From positions 1-20,216 of IMG/VR virus record IMGVR_UViG_3300031841_002513: a stretch of DNA of 20,216 nt. One strand, given 5' to 3'. Positions 5,117 to 19,886 of the stretch are shown piece after piece (the stretch's first letter is position 1; every line of letters begins with the position of its first letter). A model generated the notes under the pieces. The model made no database searches. It saw only the letters and a program-made list of their open reading frames with translations, and was not told the DNA's origin. Made by a program: the position numbers and the translations under genes. The stretch is from a virus.

Positions 5117-5171
5117 GCTTTATATGTCTTTAAGTCTTGCCGAAAAGGCTATGCAGTTGCTGTTTAGCTAG
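5043..5171 (+). CDS. Small single-pass membrane protein
   Basis: A 42-residue protein with a short basic N-terminus (MKTLDKIR), one hydrophobic segment at about 9-28 and an amphipathic Leu/Ala/Met tail. The start at 5043 is supported by GGAGGT five bases upstream. It overlaps the last 74 bases of the zinc-ribbon gene in a different frame and ends with a TAG that shares the CTAG palindrome with the stop of the lysozyme gene on the other strand. Small one-helix proteins beside lysis genes can be pinholins or antiholins, but this gene is on the opposite strand and in the regulator operon, so that role is only a guess. A leader-peptide-like or spurious ORF is possible. Confidence 0.55.
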   Translation: MKTLDKIRMMAIMAFWGLLIAFLIKLYMSLSLAEKAMQLLFS

Positions 5172-5620
5172 TCCTGATCTGACAGCTGACGCATTCTGGC
5201 AACCAAGCGCCTTGCGCGATTCGGGACCTGTCGATACCACTTCGAGTCGACCATCTCATCTGCTGCACGATGCCAATCTCTGGCATCCACGCCAGCCTTC
5301 ATGCCTTTGAAAGCAGACAGCCTTGGGTAGCCAAGGTTAAACATCATATTGGCTATGATCAGCTGGCACTCTTCTGGCAGATCATCAAAGTCTGAATAGA
5401 GCCTGTGACAGTCTTCTATCGTCACTCGTATGTCCAGATTGAATGCTGCCTGCACACGCTCTTGACTGACAGTGGTTCCGACTTCCTGCCCATGTTCTGG
5501 GTCGCCTTCACGAATTAAGTGACCAATTCCGAATGTGGGCAGGCCCAAATGGTCAAGATACACTTCATATTTGCAGCCCTCGTCATCAGCGAGTTGCTGC
5601 CGCAGCAAATCTAAATTCAT
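5168..5620 (-). CDS. T4-type lysozyme (glycoside hydrolase 24), endolysin
   Basis: A 150-residue muramidase that cleaves the MurNAc-GlcNAc bond of peptidoglycan to release progeny. The catalytic triad of T4 lysozyme (Glu11, Asp20, Thr26) is matched with the same spacing by E14 (in DDEG), D23 and T29, followed by the family signature FGIGH (30-34). The C-terminal helical lobe contains the usual NMMFNLG segment (about 91-97) and a Trp-Tyr plus Arg-rich end. There is no signal peptide, so export needs a holin; a two-helix membrane protein is encoded directly upstream. The ATG at 5620 has AGGA seven bases upstream. It is the last gene of the leftward late operon, and its TAG overlaps the stop of the rightward mini-operon. 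No Rz-like spanin pair is visible in the window. Confidence 0.95.
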   Translation of the reverse strand: MNLDLLRQQLADDEGCKYEVYLDHLGLPTFGIGHLIREGDPEHGQEVGTTVSQERVQAAFNLDIRVTIEDCHRLYSDFDDLPEECQLIIANMMFNLGYPRLSAFKGMKAGVDARDWHRAADEMVDSKWYRQVPNRARRLVARMRQLSDQD

Positions 5621-5622
5621 GA

Positions 5623-5949
5623 TTATTTCCTACTCATCCAAGCAGTTGTCCCCATGTAAGCGCCTACAACGCCTGCCTGCGCTATGTAAAATAGGCCTAG
5701 CAAATCAGCCAGTGCGGAGACACGCGAATCAGATACAATAGGCAGAAACAGAAAAATGCTAAAAATAATCATGCTGCCCATAGCGATCCAAGCCATACGC
5801 TTTTGAGCTTCGGACTTTTCTTCACGAAGCTCAAGCTCAATCATTTCTTTTTCACGAGCTATTTCCTCATCTGTCACGATGCCATCGCCATCCAGATCAT
5901 ACTTTTCGTATAAGCTGTCTTTCTCAAGCGATTTTTTGCCGGGTGTCAT
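5623..5949 (-). CDS. EF-hand membrane protein, putative holin
   Basis: A 108-residue protein with a canonical EF-hand loop near the N-terminus: D18, D20, D22, G23, V25 and E29 occupy loop positions 1, 3, 5, 6, 8 and 12, so calcium binding is expected. A charged helix rich in Glu and Lys (about 27-51) follows, then two membrane segments (about 53-72 and 83-105) and a short basic end. Size, two helices and position right before the lysozyme suggest a class II-like holin that opens the inner membrane for the endolysin. The EF-hand is not a standard part of holins. Its ATG overlaps the TGA of the large upstream gene (ATGA) and its TAA is two bases from the lysozyme ATG, a tight lysis cassette. 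An alternative is a virion or signalling protein unrelated to lysis. Confidence 0.75.
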   Translation of the reverse strand: MTPGKKSLEKDSLYEKYDLDGDGIVTDEEIAREKEMIELELREEKSEAQKRMAWIAMGSMIIFSIFLFLPIVSDSRVSALADLLGLFYIAQAGVVGAYMGTTAWMSRK

Positions 5950-14865: not shown

Positions 14866-16086
14866 TTAGGTTTTGATGATGTAGTTCAGAATGATGGTCG
14901 GCTGCACATTGTTATGAGCAGAGCCGGAGCCAGTATTCGCAAGGCTGGCAGTATGGGCGGTAGATGTGCCTTGGGTTGTTGCGTGTTCCGTTATTGTCTC
15001 AACATTTGTTGGCGTTGCGAAAGAAAGCCCAGAAGCACTCTGTCCATTGCTTCCGGTTCCTGATATTCCATAAACAGTAACACTGTTAACTGTGTGCGTA
15101 TGTGCCGCAAGTTCCGCTTCTGTCAGCGTATGCGTTTCGTTGCCTCCAGTGCCGCCCAGCGTGTCACCATTAACACCACCACTTTGGCCAGTAAGCCTAT
15201 TAGCAGAAGACCCACCCATATCGTCTTGACCCGCGACAGCACGGCCACGCAAATCCGGCAGATTAAAGGTGGTGCTGCCATCGCCCGTGCCATATGTTGT
15301 GCCAATCGCTGAAAACAAAGAAGCATAAGTTGTTCTGCTAACTTCTTGTCCATAACATAGCAAAAATCCAGAAGGCGCAGAGGTTCCCGCATACGGAACA
15401 AGTGCGCCTGTGGGCATTGCTGTTGAAGTAACATTATCTATCTGTGTTTGAATGTTGCTTGTTACACCATCGACATAATTAAGCTCTGCTGTGGTGGCTG
15501 TAAGGCCATCCAAAATATTTATCTCTGCCGTATTCGCAGTAACACCATCCAAAATGTTTATTTCTGCTGTATCAGCAGTAACGCCATCAAGAATGTTTAA
15601 CTCTGCTGCTGTAGATGTGACTTCAGTTCCATCTATGCTAAATGTCGTTGCGTTAACAACGCCAGCAATGTCTATGATATTGGTAAAATCTGTTACTTTT
15701 GCCGTAGCTCCAGCCCCGTCAGCATAGATAACTTTTGTTGTTCCTGTGCTAACAGTTACATTTCCACCGCTTCCTTGAGTAAATGTAAGGCTATATCCAG
15801 AAGCATTATGAACAAAATAAAGCTTGTCTGCTGTATTTGGAGATATGGTTATTGTGCAGGCCTCAGAGGCGCTTGTGTAATGCAGAACTTTGTATTGACC
15901 ATCAGACAAAGCTCCGTCTGTAGTCGTCAATGTTGCTGTGGCCCCTGACACAGTAAGCGCACCGACACCATTGCTGGCGCGGTCAACAATATCCATGTTT
16001 GTGTTAACTGTTGTTCCCCAAGTGCCTGCCTGATCGCCGCTACCGGGTTTTTCAACGCCAAGATTGCTTGTGTAGGTGCTTGCCAT
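14866..16086 (-). CDS. Tail fibre / collar protein with Phage_Collar domain
   Basis: A 406-residue tail protein. The N-terminus (MASTYTSNLG, 1-10) and the GTWGTTVNTNMDIVD segment (21-35) are typical of phage fibre proteins that attach to the particle. Residues 159-210 hold four 13-residue repeats around NILDGVT. The collar domain spans about 224-300, with MPTGALVPY, GFLLCYGQEVSR and the hallmark FNLPDLRGR (284-292). The C-terminal part has HTHT (about 339-342) and several other His, and ends in NNVQPTIILNYIIKT. Such proteins form trimeric fibres whose tip can bind metal and contact the host receptor. I chose ATG 16086 (TAATG overlap with the upstream gene) over an earlier in-frame codon at 16107. 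Confidence 0.88.
   Translation of the reverse strand: MASTYTSNLGVEKPGSGDQAGTWGTTVNTNMDIVDRASNGVGALTVSGATATLTTTDGALSDGQYKVLHYTSASEACTITISPNTADKLYFVHNASGYSLTFTQGSGGNVTVSTGTTKVIYADGAGATAKVTDFTNIIDIAGVVNATTFSIDGTEVTSTAAELNILDGVTADTAEINILDGVTANTAEINILDGLTATTAELNYVDGVTSNIQTQIDNVTSTAMPTGALVPYAGTSAPSGFLLCYGQEVSRTTYASLFSAIGTTYGTGDGSTTFNLPDLRGRAVAGQDDMGGSSANRLTGQSGGVNGDTLGGTGGNETHTLTEAELAAHTHTVNSVTVYGISGTGSNGQSASGLSFATPTNVETITEHATTQGTSTAHTASLANTGSGSAHNNVQPTIILNYIIKT
15457..15612 (-). repeat. Four 13-residue (39 bp) ILDGVT repeats in the tail fibre
   Basis: The units begin near residues 160, 173, 186 and 199, with the pattern TAE-L/I-N-I-L-D-G-V/L-T-A. They are imperfect at DNA level. Repeats of this kind are known in phage tail fibres and probably form a triple-stranded beta shaft in the trimer. 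They are protein repeats and not a DNA element. Confidence 0.8.
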
Positions 16087-16778
16087 TATGCTGCTATCTC
16101 CGACCATCCGGGTGATTGATTAGGATCAATTTCGCCCCAGACATTTTCTACACCAATATTACCCGTTCCAACAACTCCAGTCAATTCAACGGACTCGTCA
16201 ATCCGGGCAATGGCAGTCCCTAGGCTTCCTATTGAAATAAGACCAGAAACATCCACAGGTGTAATAAGCTCTATTGTAACGCTACCCAATGCGGAAGTTG
16301 CAGCGTTTCCTGTTGCTGAAATTAGAGAGCTGGCTTCTATAGAAACACTTCCCAAAGAAGATGTTGCGGAAACACCAGTAACGCTTACATTAGCCGTTCC
16401 CACAACAGATTCTTCACCAAGCGCACTTGTTCCAGCTGTCGCTGATACACCCACAACAGCGGCGCCACTTGTTAATACGCTACCCTCATTTGCATATACA
16501 GTTTGTCCAGTAACAATTATGATAAATTGAGCAAAAGCTTCAGCAGTTCCCAACTCACCTGTTGCGCTATTACCCGTTGCAGAAGTCCCGGCTCCAGCAG
16601 TAATAGTGGCCGATCCTAACGCAGAAGTTCCAGAAAGACCCGTTAAGATTGCGGCAGCTGGCGCAGTTACACTGCCTACCGCAGATGTGCCAGAAAGACC
16701 TGTTGCGGAGACTATAGCAAACTCAAGCCCGCTTCCGGCAAATGTATCAGATGAAAAAGCAGACTGAGCAAAAGACAT
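16086..16778 (-). CDS. Repetitive Ser/Thr/Gly/Ala-rich late protein
   Basis: A 230-residue protein built mostly from degenerate repeats of the form (T/V)-G-x-S-(G/A)-T-S-A-L-G-S-(V/A)-T, about eight or nine copies between residues 26 and 210 and spaced 17-27 residues apart. There are no Cys, few charged residues and many beta-branched residues, as in beta-solenoid or extended fibre proteins. The C-terminus (EIDPNQSPGWSEIAA) carries Pro-Trp features seen at the end of some tail proteins. It lies directly upstream of the collar fibre gene with a TAATG overlap and follows the four-Cys gene with another TAATG, and GGAG stands seven bases before its ATG. It may be a decoration or fibre-associated protein; no enzyme motif is visible. 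Confidence 0.75.
   Translation of the reverse strand: MSFAQSAFSSDTFAGSGLEFAIVSATGLSGTSAVGSVTAPAAAILTGLSGTSALGSATITAGAGTSATGNSATGELGTAEAFAQFIIIVTGQTVYANEGSVLTSGAAVVGVSATAGTSALGEESVVGTANVSVTGVSATSSLGSVSIEASSLISATGNAATSALGSVTIELITPVDVSGLISIGSLGTAIARIDESVELTGVVGTGNIGVENVWGEIDPNQSPGWSEIAA
16148..16703 (-). repeat. Degenerate TSALGS repeats
   Basis: Peptide repeats centred on G-x-(S/A)-x-T-S-A-L-G-S at roughly residues 26, 46, 65, 110, 137, 158 and beyond, with diverged DNA. Copies such as TGLSGTSAVGS and TGLSGTSALGS, both near the N-terminus, are the most alike. Confidence 0.65.
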
Positions 16779-17083
16779 TAACCATCTCCTAAAACAAGTA
16801 TATTATTATCTTTGTTTATGGTTTTAAGCAACACTTCCCTATTAATGTCATTTGATTTGACCATTTCATTGCGGAAGCTCTCTACAGCAGCACCAGTGCT
16901 TCGAGACTGTTGAGCGTTTTCAATTAAAAGAACAGGAAGCCAAGCCACAGCGCAGCCGTAATCCTCTATGTCTTTGCCAGTATTTGGATCAGTGCCAGCA
17001 ATTTTAGTGAACCAAGCACAGTCAAGTTGTTTGCAAGGCTCAAAATTATTTAACGGGCAGTTGTCTTTTACTTCTAGTTTCAT
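16778..17083 (-). CDS. Small four-cysteine late protein, unknown function
   Basis: A 101-residue protein with four Cys in its first 44 residues, C9-x7-C17-x4-C22-x21-C44, in the context NCPLNNFEPC, QLDCAWF and YGCAVAWLP. The spacing could hold a zinc ion or an iron-sulfur cluster, but this is inferred. The second half is a polar amphipathic helix (about 52-90). I believe similar proteins occur in other marine phages, with unknown role. It sits in the late operon between the 94-residue protein and the repeat protein. The ATG at 17083 comes three bases after the upstream TAA and has only a weak GAG as ribosome-binding site; its own TAA overlaps the next ATG. Confidence 0.75.
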   Translation of the reverse strand: MKLEVKDNCPLNNFEPCKQLDCAWFTKIAGTDPNTGKDIEDYGCAVAWLPVLLIENAQQSRSTGAAVESFRNEMVKSNDINREVLLKTINKDNNILVLGDG

Positions 17084-17086
17084 AGC

Positions 17087-17371
17087 TTACTCAGGGTCTG
17101 GAGGGAACTCAGCATCATAAGCAGCTTGCCAAGTTGTTTCTACACTTGCCCACCAAGACAAGGTGCTTGTTGCTACATTTGATTCATTTGTAGAACGCTC
17201 ACCAGTCGCTGGGTCTCCATACTCTATCTGGCAAGTAACGCCATCAGATGACTGAACAGCGCAAACATTTGCTGGCAGAAAAGAAAGGTCTAAATGGCTA
17301 TAAAAATGCCCATCTTTGCCAATTTGTTCTGCATCTGCACTACCGCCATTTACGATTGTCCATTTGGCCAT
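17087..17371 (-). CDS. Small late protein, unknown function
   Basis: A 94-residue protein with a beta-rich first half (WTIVNGG, then a YSHLDLSFLP segment and a VTCQIEYGDPATG segment) and an acidic, Trp-rich C-terminus ending in FPPDPE. No family is recognised; a small virion or chaperone-like protein is possible. I place the start at the ATG at 17371 and not the ATG at 17377, because the AGGAG at 17378-17382 touches the first ATG but lies six bases before the second. The AGGAG overlaps the stop codon of the oxygenase gene. Confidence 0.7.
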   Translation of the reverse strand: MAKWTIVNGGSADAEQIGKDGHFYSHLDLSFLPANVCAVQSSDGVTCQIEYGDPATGERSTNESNVATSTLSWWASVETTWQAAYDAEFPPDPE

Positions 17372-17377
17372 TGCCAT

Positions 17378-17382
17378 CTCCT
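17378..17382 (-). promoter_or_regulatory. Shine-Dalgarno that decides the start of gene 17087-17371
   Basis: AGGAG directly abuts the ATG at 17377, which leaves no spacer, and is six bases from the ATG at 17371, a normal distance. It also overlaps the TAG of the upstream oxygenase gene. Confidence 0.6.
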
Positions 17383-17959
17383 ACACTAAATAATACCAAC
17401 CAGTTGCTATGTATTTGTCACAGCTATACACAGGGTTGCCTCTGTGTGTGTGCGTCCAAGACGCAGGAAAAAAACATAGCAAACCTTTTTTGGGCTGTTG
17501 CTTTATGCCATATTCCAAAAATTCTGTTTCGCCTTCGCCTTCTGGCACATCATTCAAATACAAAGTCCAGACTAAGTTTCTCCAACTTGAGCTTTCATTC
17601 CTGCTATGCTCACAATGCCAAGTATGAAATCCGCCCCGGGGTGGAGTTTTTTGAACTTTCATGTGTTCTGACATACATCCCTGCATACCAAAGGCACTAT
17701 ATTCTTCAGAATATTTTGGAATATATGTCCTTAATATGTCGTGCATTTCAGCAACAAGAGGGTCTCTTAAAGCATTAAAACTAAAAGAATAATCTCGCCT
17801 ATTAGATTCTCCGTGATTTGTATTTGAACCACTCATATAATGCCTTGCAAGTTCAGGGTCGTCTTTGCTTGCTATATATTCCTCTAGCTTCTTAATTGTC
17901 CTTTCACAAAAGTCAAAAGCATCTGTCTGGTATGTTTCAATGAATGTAGGCGTTTGCAT
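17381..17959 (-). CDS. 2OG-Fe(II) oxygenase, putative tail-associated hydroxylase
   Basis: A 192-residue protein of the 2-oxoglutarate/Fe(II)-dependent dioxygenase superfamily. Such enzymes hydroxylate proteins or small molecules with O2 and 2OG. The iron ligands expected on the double-stranded beta helix can be placed: H115-x-E117 in WHCEH, and a distal His at 172 (HTHRG; H170 is an alternative). The family's usual Arg that binds 2OG is replaced by or near K182 in DKYIATGW, so cofactor binding needs a check. The WTLYLNDV strand (131-138) and EGEGETEF (140-147) are typical. The ATG at 17959 lies one base after the TAA of the tail-fibre gene with AAGGA five bases upstream; a TTG at 17977 is less likely. 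Tight coupling to the fibre gene suggests a role in tail or fibre maturation. Related enzymes are common in cyanophages. Confidence 0.87.
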   Translation of the reverse strand: MQTPTFIETYQTDAFDFCERTIKKLEEYIASKDDPELARHYMSGSNTNHGESNRRDYSFSFNALRDPLVAEMHDILRTYIPKYSEEYSAFGMQGCMSEHMKVQKTPPRGGFHTWHCEHSRNESSSWRNLVWTLYLNDVPEGEGETEFLEYGIKQQPKKGLLCFFPASWTHTHRGNPVYSCDKYIATGWYYLV

Positions 17960-17960
17960 T

Positions 17961-19886
17961 TTAGTCCTTAGAAGCAATAATCAAATCAACATACTGAACA
18001 TTAATGCCAGCAGTTGCGCTTGACAAGCTACCAGACATATTATGACCGTGGTTGTGAGCACCGCCGCCACCAGTGTTTGCTGTATTTATATTGCCGTTGT
18101 CATTTGGACCATTATGGGTGTGGTTTCCACCAGTCGCATTGTTGTCATGTTTATTATAAGAGTGCGAGTGTGATGGAATTTGATTAACAGACAGCGTGGT
18201 ATTGCTGATGTTACCAGAAATTGAAACAGAGCCGCTAACAGTTGGCGTTCCCAAAGCAGTGCTAAATGCAGATGAACCGCCAGAACCAGCAGTTCCGCTA
18301 ACCACACGCAGTGCCTTGTCATTATGTGTTGTCTGCTTTGTCCAGCCAGTAGGTGCGGCTGTCTGTTGGAACAGCATCAATGTGCCAGAAGTAAAACCGC
18401 CGCCAGCATCTTGCCAAGTAGCTGTTGTGCCGTTTGATGTAAGCACCTGACCATTTGATCCAAAGCCGCTGCCAGCATAGATGCCGCTAGACAGGTAGAG
18501 GTCTTTGAAGCGTTCCGTTGATTGCCCAAAGTCAATTTGACCATCACTTAATGCGCCATCACGCAAAGGAAGCAATTTGTCTATGGCAAAACGCAATCCG
18601 CTGTGATTTGTTGCAGAGGACGCAATGGTTAAATCAGAAGATGTTGTCCCAATCGACCCCACCACGCTGCCGTCTTTGCGGAACTCCGCAATCGTGCCAT
18701 CCGAAGCCAGCTTATTGAAAATTGCATTTGTGCCAGTAGCCGCAGTTTCAATCCAGCCGCTAGGTGCAACATGAAATCCTGTGCCTGTCGTGCTATTGTT
18801 ATATAAGGCTGTGTCAGTCGTCCCCACCAGCAAATTGCGGGCGCTGTCTATGCGGGCGGATTCGCTGCCACCATTTGTAAAAGCAATAGTGTTTGCAGAC
18901 GGACGGAAGATGCCCAAGTCGGTGTCGTTTAGAAACCGGATGCCGGGATTAGATGACCCACCATCTTTGAAATACACGGTTCCACTGCTGTCAATCTTCA
19001 TTACTTCTGCGGAGTTTGTAAAGAAGCGCAAAGCATCATTGGTGTGGTCATAACCGACTACGCCGTAGGAACCGCCAGTGCCATCCGAAAACAGGATGTC
19101 TGTGTTTGCCGAGGTCGTGCTGCCCATTATTTCAAAATACACATCACCGCTAGGCATCTTGAACAGGTGGCCAGTAGCCGCACCGCCCCGGCCAGAGGTG
19201 GCACCTACCTGTAAATTGCCAGCCGATGTGATGCGGAGGCGTTCACTTTCACTAGTGCCAGAAGCGTCTGTGCCGCCAGTGAAAAATGTGATGTTGTTGT
19301 TGCCGCTGTTTCCTCTAGTGGCAAATTTTAGATTGTTTGACTGTGCTGCCCCGCTGACATTGTAAATAGTGGCGTGTTCAACATTCATATAACGATTTGA
19401 ATCGTAGGCAATCTTTGCTTGCGGCGTTGAAGTGTCCAAAATATGCAAGGCTGCGCTAGGCGAAGTAGTCTTAATGCCAACCCGGTTATTCGTGCTGTCC
19501 ACATACAGAGTGTTGGTGTCCACAGTCAGGTCGCCTACAACGACAAGATCATTTGGGGCATTAAGATTTCCAGAAGCGTCCAAATATGCGGCTTTTTCAG
19601 AAGGCTGCGTTACAAAAATATCTTTGTTACCAGCCCCCCAATTTACAGCCGCATCAGAATTAGAAGACTGCAATATTGTGGTTCTCGCAAGCGTTGTTCC
19701 TGAAGCAGTATATGTTCCAAGACCAACCTCCCAATTTGTTCCATCCGTGCAGGCGTAATATGTTGTGTTGCCATCACCAACCGCACTAAATGCTTCGTAG
19801 CCAGTTACAGCACCGCCAAGAGTATATGTGCCAGTTCCAGTAGTGGAAGTGGTTTCTCTAACTCGATCTCTTAAAACAAGTGCCAT
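17961..19886 (-). CDS. Tail fibre protein with His-rich receptor-tip domain
   Basis: A 641-residue tail fibre. The N-terminal 100 residues (LRDRVRETTSTTGTGTYTLGG..., VGDGNTTYY, TNWEVGLGTYTASGTTLART) match a fibre attachment domain that I have seen in many phages of Proteobacteria. The middle is a long beta-rich region with repeated strand-turn motifs such as NRVGIKTTSPSAALH and RLRITSAGNLQVG, as in trimeric beta-helical fibres. From about 500 comes a collar-like tip (GTLMLFQQTAAPTGWTKQTT, ALRVVSG) with an extreme His-rich loop (SHSHSYNKH, NHTHNG, AHNHGHN) and a conserved end NVQYVDLIIASKD. HxH pairs of this kind hold iron in the tip of T4 fibre gp37. The ATG at 19886 has GGAG six bases upstream. 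It is the first complete gene of the late block here and probably defines host binding. Confidence 0.87.
   Translation of the reverse strand: MALVLRDRVRETTSTTGTGTYTLGGAVTGYEAFSAVGDGNTTYYACTDGTNWEVGLGTYTASGTTLARTTILQSSNSDAAVNWGAGNKDIFVTQPSEKAAYLDASGNLNAPNDLVVVGDLTVDTNTLYVDSTNNRVGIKTTSPSAALHILDTSTPQAKIAYDSNRYMNVEHATIYNVSGAAQSNNLKFATRGNSGNNNITFFTGGTDASGTSESERLRITSAGNLQVGATSGRGGAATGHLFKMPSGDVYFEIMGSTTSANTDILFSDGTGGSYGVVGYDHTNDALRFFTNSAEVMKIDSSGTVYFKDGGSSNPGIRFLNDTDLGIFRPSANTIAFTNGGSESARIDSARNLLVGTTDTALYNNSTTGTGFHVAPSGWIETAATGTNAIFNKLASDGTIAEFRKDGSVVGSIGTTSSDLTIASSATNHSGLRFAIDKLLPLRDGALSDGQIDFGQSTERFKDLYLSSGIYAGSGFGSNGQVLTSNGTTATWQDAGGGFTSGTLMLFQQTAAPTGWTKQTTHNDKALRVVSGTAGSGGSSAFSTALGTPTVSGSVSISGNISNTTLSVNQIPSHSHSYNKHDNNATGGNHTHNGPNDNGNINTANTGGGGAHNHGHNMSGSLSSATAGINVQYVDLIIASKD

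Follow-up and report, generated by a model that had tools for sequence, protein, structure and literature searches.

The window analysed in this work, i.e., the whole 20,216-base virus record IMGVR_UViG_3300031841_002513, derives from a marine phage and carries podovirus-like late genes, including those encoding a 630-aa protein matching phage stabilisation proteins and a Sak4-like annealing protein. On the minus strand, a tail-fibre gene is followed after one base by a gene encoding a predicted 2OG-Fe(II) oxygenase (hereinafter OX), a 96-aa protein and a 101-aa protein (hereinafter C2). The features of this region are the following:

17961..19886, minus strand: tail fibre of 641 aa, whose C-terminal tip bears HxH clusters and ends in INVQYVDLIIASKD; residues 1-106 are 69% identical to a "putative tail fiber protein" of Roseobacter phage CRP-6, and the same tip type lies upstream of OX in relatives
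18210..18212, minus strand: codon of fibre Asn559 (SGNI, covarying site 2)
18039..18041, minus strand: codon of fibre Asn616 (HNHGHNMSG, covarying site 1, right after the last HxH cluster)
17965..17969, minus strand: AAGGA, Shine-Dalgarno-like, inside the last fibre codons
17381..17959, minus strand: OX, 2OG-Fe(II) oxygenase of 192 aa with a predicted prolyl-hydroxylase-like fold
17615..17617, minus strand: codon of H115, proposed Fe ligand
17609..17611, minus strand: codon of E117, proposed Fe ligand (HxE)
17444..17446, minus strand: codon of H172, proposed distal Fe ligand
17414..17416, minus strand: codon of K182, proposed 2OG-binding Lys (distal His +10)
17087..17377, minus strand: 96-aa protein related to the N-terminal part of tail assembly chaperones (APC)
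16778..17083, minus strand: C2, 101-aa protein with four invariant Cys and an ESFRNEMV motif, a regular companion of the fibre tip

Elsewhere in the window there is a second fibre-like pair (16086-16778 and 14866-16107), composed of a 230-aa LSGTSALGS-repeat protein overlapping a 413-aa tail-collar (PF07484) protein. Moreover, a 108-aa ORF (5623-5949) with an EF-hand-like DLDGDGIVTDEE stretch and hydrophobic segments lies next to a lysozyme-like ORF (5168-5620); from reading of the sequence only, the two look like a lysis pair.

A preliminary description of the locus had reported an oxygenase ATG one base after the fibre stop, a ribosome-binding site inside the last fibre codons, the Fe ligands H115, E117 and His172, and a Lys182 in place of the usual 2OG-binding Arg; these observations were confirmed by our analysis. 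The junction reads TCT AAG GAC TAA, a single A and then the ATG of OX, with AAGGA 5 nt before the ATG. However, the AAGGA embedded in the KD codons is not a clearly conserved device, since 76 of 153 distinct fibre ends in KD use AAG, against 590 of 1438 Lys codons elsewhere in the same genes; the idea of a conserved ribosome-binding site at this position was rejected for lack of a clear codon bias.

OX is a real gene: its sequence matches PF13640 at 44.6 bits (curated cut-off 27) and PHROG 61 ("2OG-Fe(II) oxygenase") at 9.8e-39, whereas a scan of NCBIfam gave no meaningful hit. A search of viral contigs retrieved 463 relatives among 492 candidate stretches, of which the best 80 loci (labelled L hereinafter, together with those from the later scans) were kept; a scan of genome contigs retrieved at least 18 further distant relatives (29-52% identity). 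In 44 representatives at 90% identity (from 87 sequences: the 80 loci, the window and six cyanophage proteins), H112, H115, E117, H170, H172 and K182 never vary, and H112, H115, E117, H172 and K182 are also invariant in 40 of 40 rows reaching down to 38% identity. The sequence profile matched a Bacillus prolyl 4-hydroxylase (P4H; 5hv0/3itq) at 1.8e-11, with K182 facing its Lys ten residues after the distal His, a Lys that binds 2OG in collagen-type enzymes. Hence, Lys in place of Arg is normal for this branch, and the possibility that Lys182 marks a defective enzyme was rejected. The unusual ligand is rather Glu117, since prolyl hydroxylases have Asp (HxD) at this position. The HxE...H triad was assigned on the basis of motif and conservation, because the profile alignment does not place the Bacillus HxD on H115/E117.

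The AlphaFold model of OX has a pLDDT of 93.8, and its best structural matches are prolyl hydroxylases: PHD2 (8z35, Z 19.1, 16% identity), P. putida P4H (4j25_E, Z 18.8, 14%) and the viral collagen prolyl hydroxylase vCPH of Paramecium bursaria Chlorella virus 1 (PBCV-1; 5c5t_A, Z 18.5, 22%), the latter being the best Foldseek hit (E 2.5e-10). Thus, the predicted fold and the Lys agree with the collagen/PHD type of prolyl 4-hydroxylases, but Glu replaces the Asp of HxD in 44 of 44 representatives, and for this reason OX was not assigned to that family; a solved PHD2 D315E variant with Mn(II) (4uwd) is present in the hit list. OX also differs from these enzymes in being encoded in a tail-fibre cassette and in a covariation (see below) that points to Asn rather than Pro. 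The asparaginyl hydroxylases FIH and AspH, which share with OX the proposed target residue (Asn) and belong to other families, were not among the 50 rows shown by the fold search, which does not exclude them.

We then checked whether the oxygenase lies at random places in related genomes, which was not borne out. Of the 38 OX representatives from the 80 loci and the window, 37 have at least 600 bases upstream; among these, a fibre tip passes the profile threshold within 930 bp upstream in 34 (9 within 50 bp, 22 within 700 bp and 3 at 840-927 bp), 33 of them clearly and one (L081) only borderline, with another ending (profile score 61.9, threshold 60), whereas 3 have none. Two-gene downstream contexts are varied (29 different among 38, a number inflated by truncated contigs). 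In 13 OX+ records of 21-53 kb, all 14 PF13640 matches lie inside cassette genes (13 OX and one other); a chance location was therefore rejected. Reverse scans with the tip and with C2 (80 loci each of 217 and 260 relatives, respectively) showed that the regular unit is represented by tip, C2 and chaperone-like protein. Of 118 tips dereplicated at 80%, 33 have the order TIP-C2-OX-APC and 11 the order TIP-OX-APC-C2; hence, the direct fibre-oxygenase adjacency of the window is the less common of the two layouts. OX is facultative: out of 87 complete cassettes, 49 harbor OX, four only another 2OG oxygenase and 34 none, although one of these 34 (L164) was later found to carry another PF13640 gene after C2 and is still counted as OX- in the composition, discovery and tree analyses below. 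Since C2 follows the tip also without OX, a specific OX-C2 partnership was rejected and C2 was considered part of the cassette.

Concerning the 96-aa protein, it has no Pfam hit itself and a tblastn search of isolates with it gave no match at E 0.01; it falls in the same similarity cluster as the L027 and L081 proteins and by eye resembles gp41 of Roseobacter phage CRP-361, all three of which are longer relatives that hit PF16778 (Phage_tail_APC), whereas L074 does not. CRP-361 (gp39-41) has a fibre with the same tip end, C2 and chaperone in a row, but neither OX nor any PF13640 match in its 39 kb record, so that OX is dispensable. In 20 records with OX-free cassettes (one, L160, with another 2OG oxygenase), four have any PF13640 match and two match the OX profile, one of them strongly but about 10 kb from the cassette; this is a divergent OX homologue (L450, 10481-11071, reverse strand) outside a fibre cassette, with no second fibre tip in the stretch read. 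Other 2OG subfamilies (PF13640, PF13759) occur in the same cassettes; of nine such candidates compared with Pfam, eight hit a 2OG-Fe(II) family and one (L127, 7077-7622) hit nothing.

Related layouts were found in cyanophages. The PHROG 61 oxygenases of S-PM2 (p225), S-CAM4 (034) and S-SCSM1 (249) belong to the same family (34-46% identity). Those of S-PM2 and S-CAM4 directly follow the short tail fibre gene, although these fibres end in another tip type, while that of S-SCSM1 lies in a cluster of tail fibres, a C2 homologue and seven annotated 2OG oxygenases; the S-SCSM1 short tail fibre (L083, 4614-5879) has a long Arg/Pro-rich repeat segment in the tip between the HxH clusters. In P-SSM2 (L084, 5315-8470), a collagen-like (GPP-rich) tail fibre is followed by C2, a chaperone-like protein and PiuC, a different 2OG hydroxylase, i.e., a similar cassette with a classical prolyl-hydroxylase-type substrate sequence. 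However, in three of the six cyanophages whose oxygenase region was inspected (S-CAM9, S-PRM1 and S-SSM5) the gene is not directly behind an annotated fibre.

The comparison of OX+ and OX- cassettes revealed that the enzyme and the tip covary. The Asn content of the tip is 11.45% in 49 OX+ against 5.88% in 34 OX- cassettes, while that of the rest of the fibre is 6.45% against 6.46%, which ruled out a genome-wide composition as the cause of Asn richness; the Pro content of the tips is alike (3.19% against 2.96%). By inspecting the sequences, two motifs were defined, which occur in 50 of 55 and 41 of 55 OX+ tips, respectively, and in 0 of 34 OX- tips of this discovery set. A criterion fixed in advance (HN motif in over 80% of OX+) was then applied to 74 new tips sharing less than 80% identity with all discovery tips (47 OX-, 13 OX+, six with other 2OG oxygenases and eight undecided). 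The HN motif was found in 0 of 47, 6 of 13, 0 of 6 and 0 of 8 of them, respectively, and the second motif in 5 of 13 OX+ and in none of the rest; therefore, the pooled criterion failed. The six positives are all the held-out loci with OX between C2 and chaperone (canonical layout, 6 of 6), whereas the seven negatives have OX after C2 and the chaperone, six of them behind other 2OG oxygenases; it must be underlined that this split was made after seeing the result.

In the pooled set of 192 tips (60 canonical OX, 15 distal OX, 10 other 2OG, 73 none and 34 undecided), the residue after the last HxH cluster is Asn in 55 of 60 canonical OX+ tips (the exceptions to the HN motif being L002, L020, L026, L137 and L179) and in 0 of 73 OX- tips (Ser 35, Thr 17, Gly 8, Pro 2, unassigned 11); in the distal layout it is Pro in 9 and Asn in 3 of 15. 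GN[ILVMPT] occurs in 59 of 60 canonical OX+ against 17 of 73 OX- tips. The 34 undecided tips, with under 3 kb downstream and no oxygenase seen, were excluded from the counts; two of them (L111 and L123) carry the HN motif and end close behind tip or C2. Two OX- motif hits, both in L205, were judged pattern-matching artefacts because the match is at the first HxH.

To control for descent, we used a tree of C2, which is not the tip, embedding 147 of 174 distinct cassettes (cassettes with other 2OG oxygenases or distal OX and rows without an assignable site were left out). On this tree OX changes state only seven times, and the seven independent OX+/OX- contrasts gave five concordant, two ties and no discordant cases (one-sided p 0.031); the discovery set alone had given nine contrasts, six concordant and three ties for the HN motif. 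Two of the seven OX- partners carry another 2OG oxygenase farther on (L164 after C2, and L156 at 2.9 kb). In the three closest contrasts (L418/L424, L023/L164 and L002/L103), the framework Asn of the OX+ tip is kept at 2 of 9, 2 of 4 and 3 of 7 places (7 of 20), against 102 of 117, 52 of 64 and 77 of 87 (231 of 268) for other residues (Fisher 0.00006, 0.19 and 0.009, significant in two of the three pairs taken singly); the 13 lost Asn became Ser (7), Thr (5) or Gly (1). L023 and L164 are 95% identical over 4.6 kb downstream, yet L164 lacks OX, has Ser at both Asn sites and has a different PF13640 protein after C2.

The preliminary description had also proposed that a hydroxylase made with a fibre modifies the fibre or neighbouring late proteins; our data support this interpretation only in part. 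The covariation points to the fibre tip rather than to neighbouring late proteins in general, but direct adjacency is not the prevailing layout, the Lys is not an oddity, some cyanophage relatives are not next to fibres, and the evidence for a hydroxylated residue is solely indirect. In our opinion, OX is an Fe(II)/2-oxoglutarate protein hydroxylase with a prolyl-hydroxylase-like fold, carried as a facultative enzyme inside a mobile tail-fibre-tip cassette; in this view it is made with the fibre and most likely hydroxylates residues of the tip during assembly, next to the HxH cluster that in T4-type tips holds metal. The likeliest targets would be Asn in G-N-hydrophobic motifs and the Asn after the last HxH cluster (Asn559 and Asn616 here), Asn at these places being useful only with the enzyme. 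The gene, its predicted fold, the conserved ligands, the cassette and the covariation are documented computationally, whereas the 2OG- and Fe-dependent activity, the protein nature of the substrate, the tip as target, Asn as the modified residue and any effect on tip folding or receptor binding are inferences; we consider this explanation as a whole moderately likely. A bolder possibility, which remains tentative, is that OX is a prolyl-hydroxylase-fold asparagine hydroxylase dedicated to a phage receptor-binding tip, writing a beta-hydroxyl on Asn in G-N-hydrophobic turns and on the Asn abutting the HxH cluster. Viruses lacking it would put Ser or Thr, which carry a beta-hydroxyl already, at the same spots, other cassettes would swap in different 2OG oxygenases with other tip residues such as Pro, and phages would thus exchange tip and tip-modifying enzyme as one unit.

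Other explanations appear less likely, but they cannot be discarded. OX might modify the tip at Pro, His or another residue, with Asn being only part of the tip type or of the recognition site. Asn as a target would be unusual for this fold, whose solved members at the head of the hit list are named prolyl hydroxylases, including that of PBCV-1, and the Pro found after the HxH cluster in 9 of 15 cassettes with OX after C2 and APC or behind other 2OG oxygenases, as well as the P-SSM2 cassette, are in agreement with this idea. Furthermore, TPQ[IMLV]P occurs in 10 of 192 tips, nine with a 2OG oxygenase within 3.5 kb and one in the first of two tandem fibre genes of such a locus (L285), and the cassettes with two to four 2OG oxygenases in a row (OX included) behind fibre, C2 and chaperone (L277, L278, L279, L285, L286, L287 and L289) have tips carrying TPQIP and HPFSF instead of the Asn motifs. 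On the other hand, the Pro content is alike in OX+ and OX- tips, and it is Asn that changes in close pairs; we regard this alternative as unlikely. It is also unlikely, in our view, that tip variant and OX are simply inherited and exchanged as one block with no enzyme-substrate relation. The few independent changes on the C2 tree mean that linked inheritance explains much of the raw count, and a tail fibre and its chaperone are reported as shared between distantly related Alteromonas phages (PMC10579305); nevertheless, tip and OX covary across C2 lineages even though C2 lies between them in the common layout, OX lies on either side of C2, and other 2OG oxygenases occur in the same cassettes.

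Lastly, OX might be an auxiliary metabolic gene acting on host 2-oxoglutarate/nitrogen signalling, iron metabolism or a host protein, placed by the fibre by chance or for late expression. This is how phage 2OG oxygenases have been read, i.e., in terms of NtcA/nitrogen and DNA repair (PMC3037559), host reprogramming (PMC9602691) and PiuC/iron (PMC13184970); overall, the papers considered treat them as metabolic, as DNA repair or as unknown (see also PMC9599517, PMC11561400, PMC9004378, PMC10436341 and PMC10665884). A virion proteome of S-SCSM1 is reported in PMC9602691. Moreover, P. putida P4H has a solved complex with EF-Tu (4iw3), and some cyanophage relatives sit by CP12/cpeT or glutaredoxin genes (S-SSM5, S-CAM9). 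The regular place in the fibre cassette with varied neighbours and the covariation with tip residues argue against this possibility, which seems to us improbable. Literature searches, limited to open-licence PMC papers, listed no report that we recognised as describing this cassette or hydroxylated phage fibres; one paper notes that collagen can be part of viral tail fibres and calls the viral use of prolyl 4-hydroxylase cryptic (PMC9301287). 2OG oxygenases are frequent auxiliary metabolic genes of marine phages; a dedicated fibre-tip hydroxylase would move part of them to virion morphogenesis, add an enzymatic layer to host recognition, and link tip chemistry to oxygen, iron and 2-oxoglutarate supply, and the covariation names the residues to look at.

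As for C2 (16778-17083) and its relatives, which follow fibre tips and are present also in cyanophages, no Pfam hit was found and the AlphaFold model was poor (pLDDT 57.5), so that no inference was drawn from it. The alignment revealed four Cys (C9, C17, C22 and C44) invariant in 21 of 21 sequences; C2 is a regular, unnamed member of fibre cassettes, possibly metal- or Fe-S-binding.
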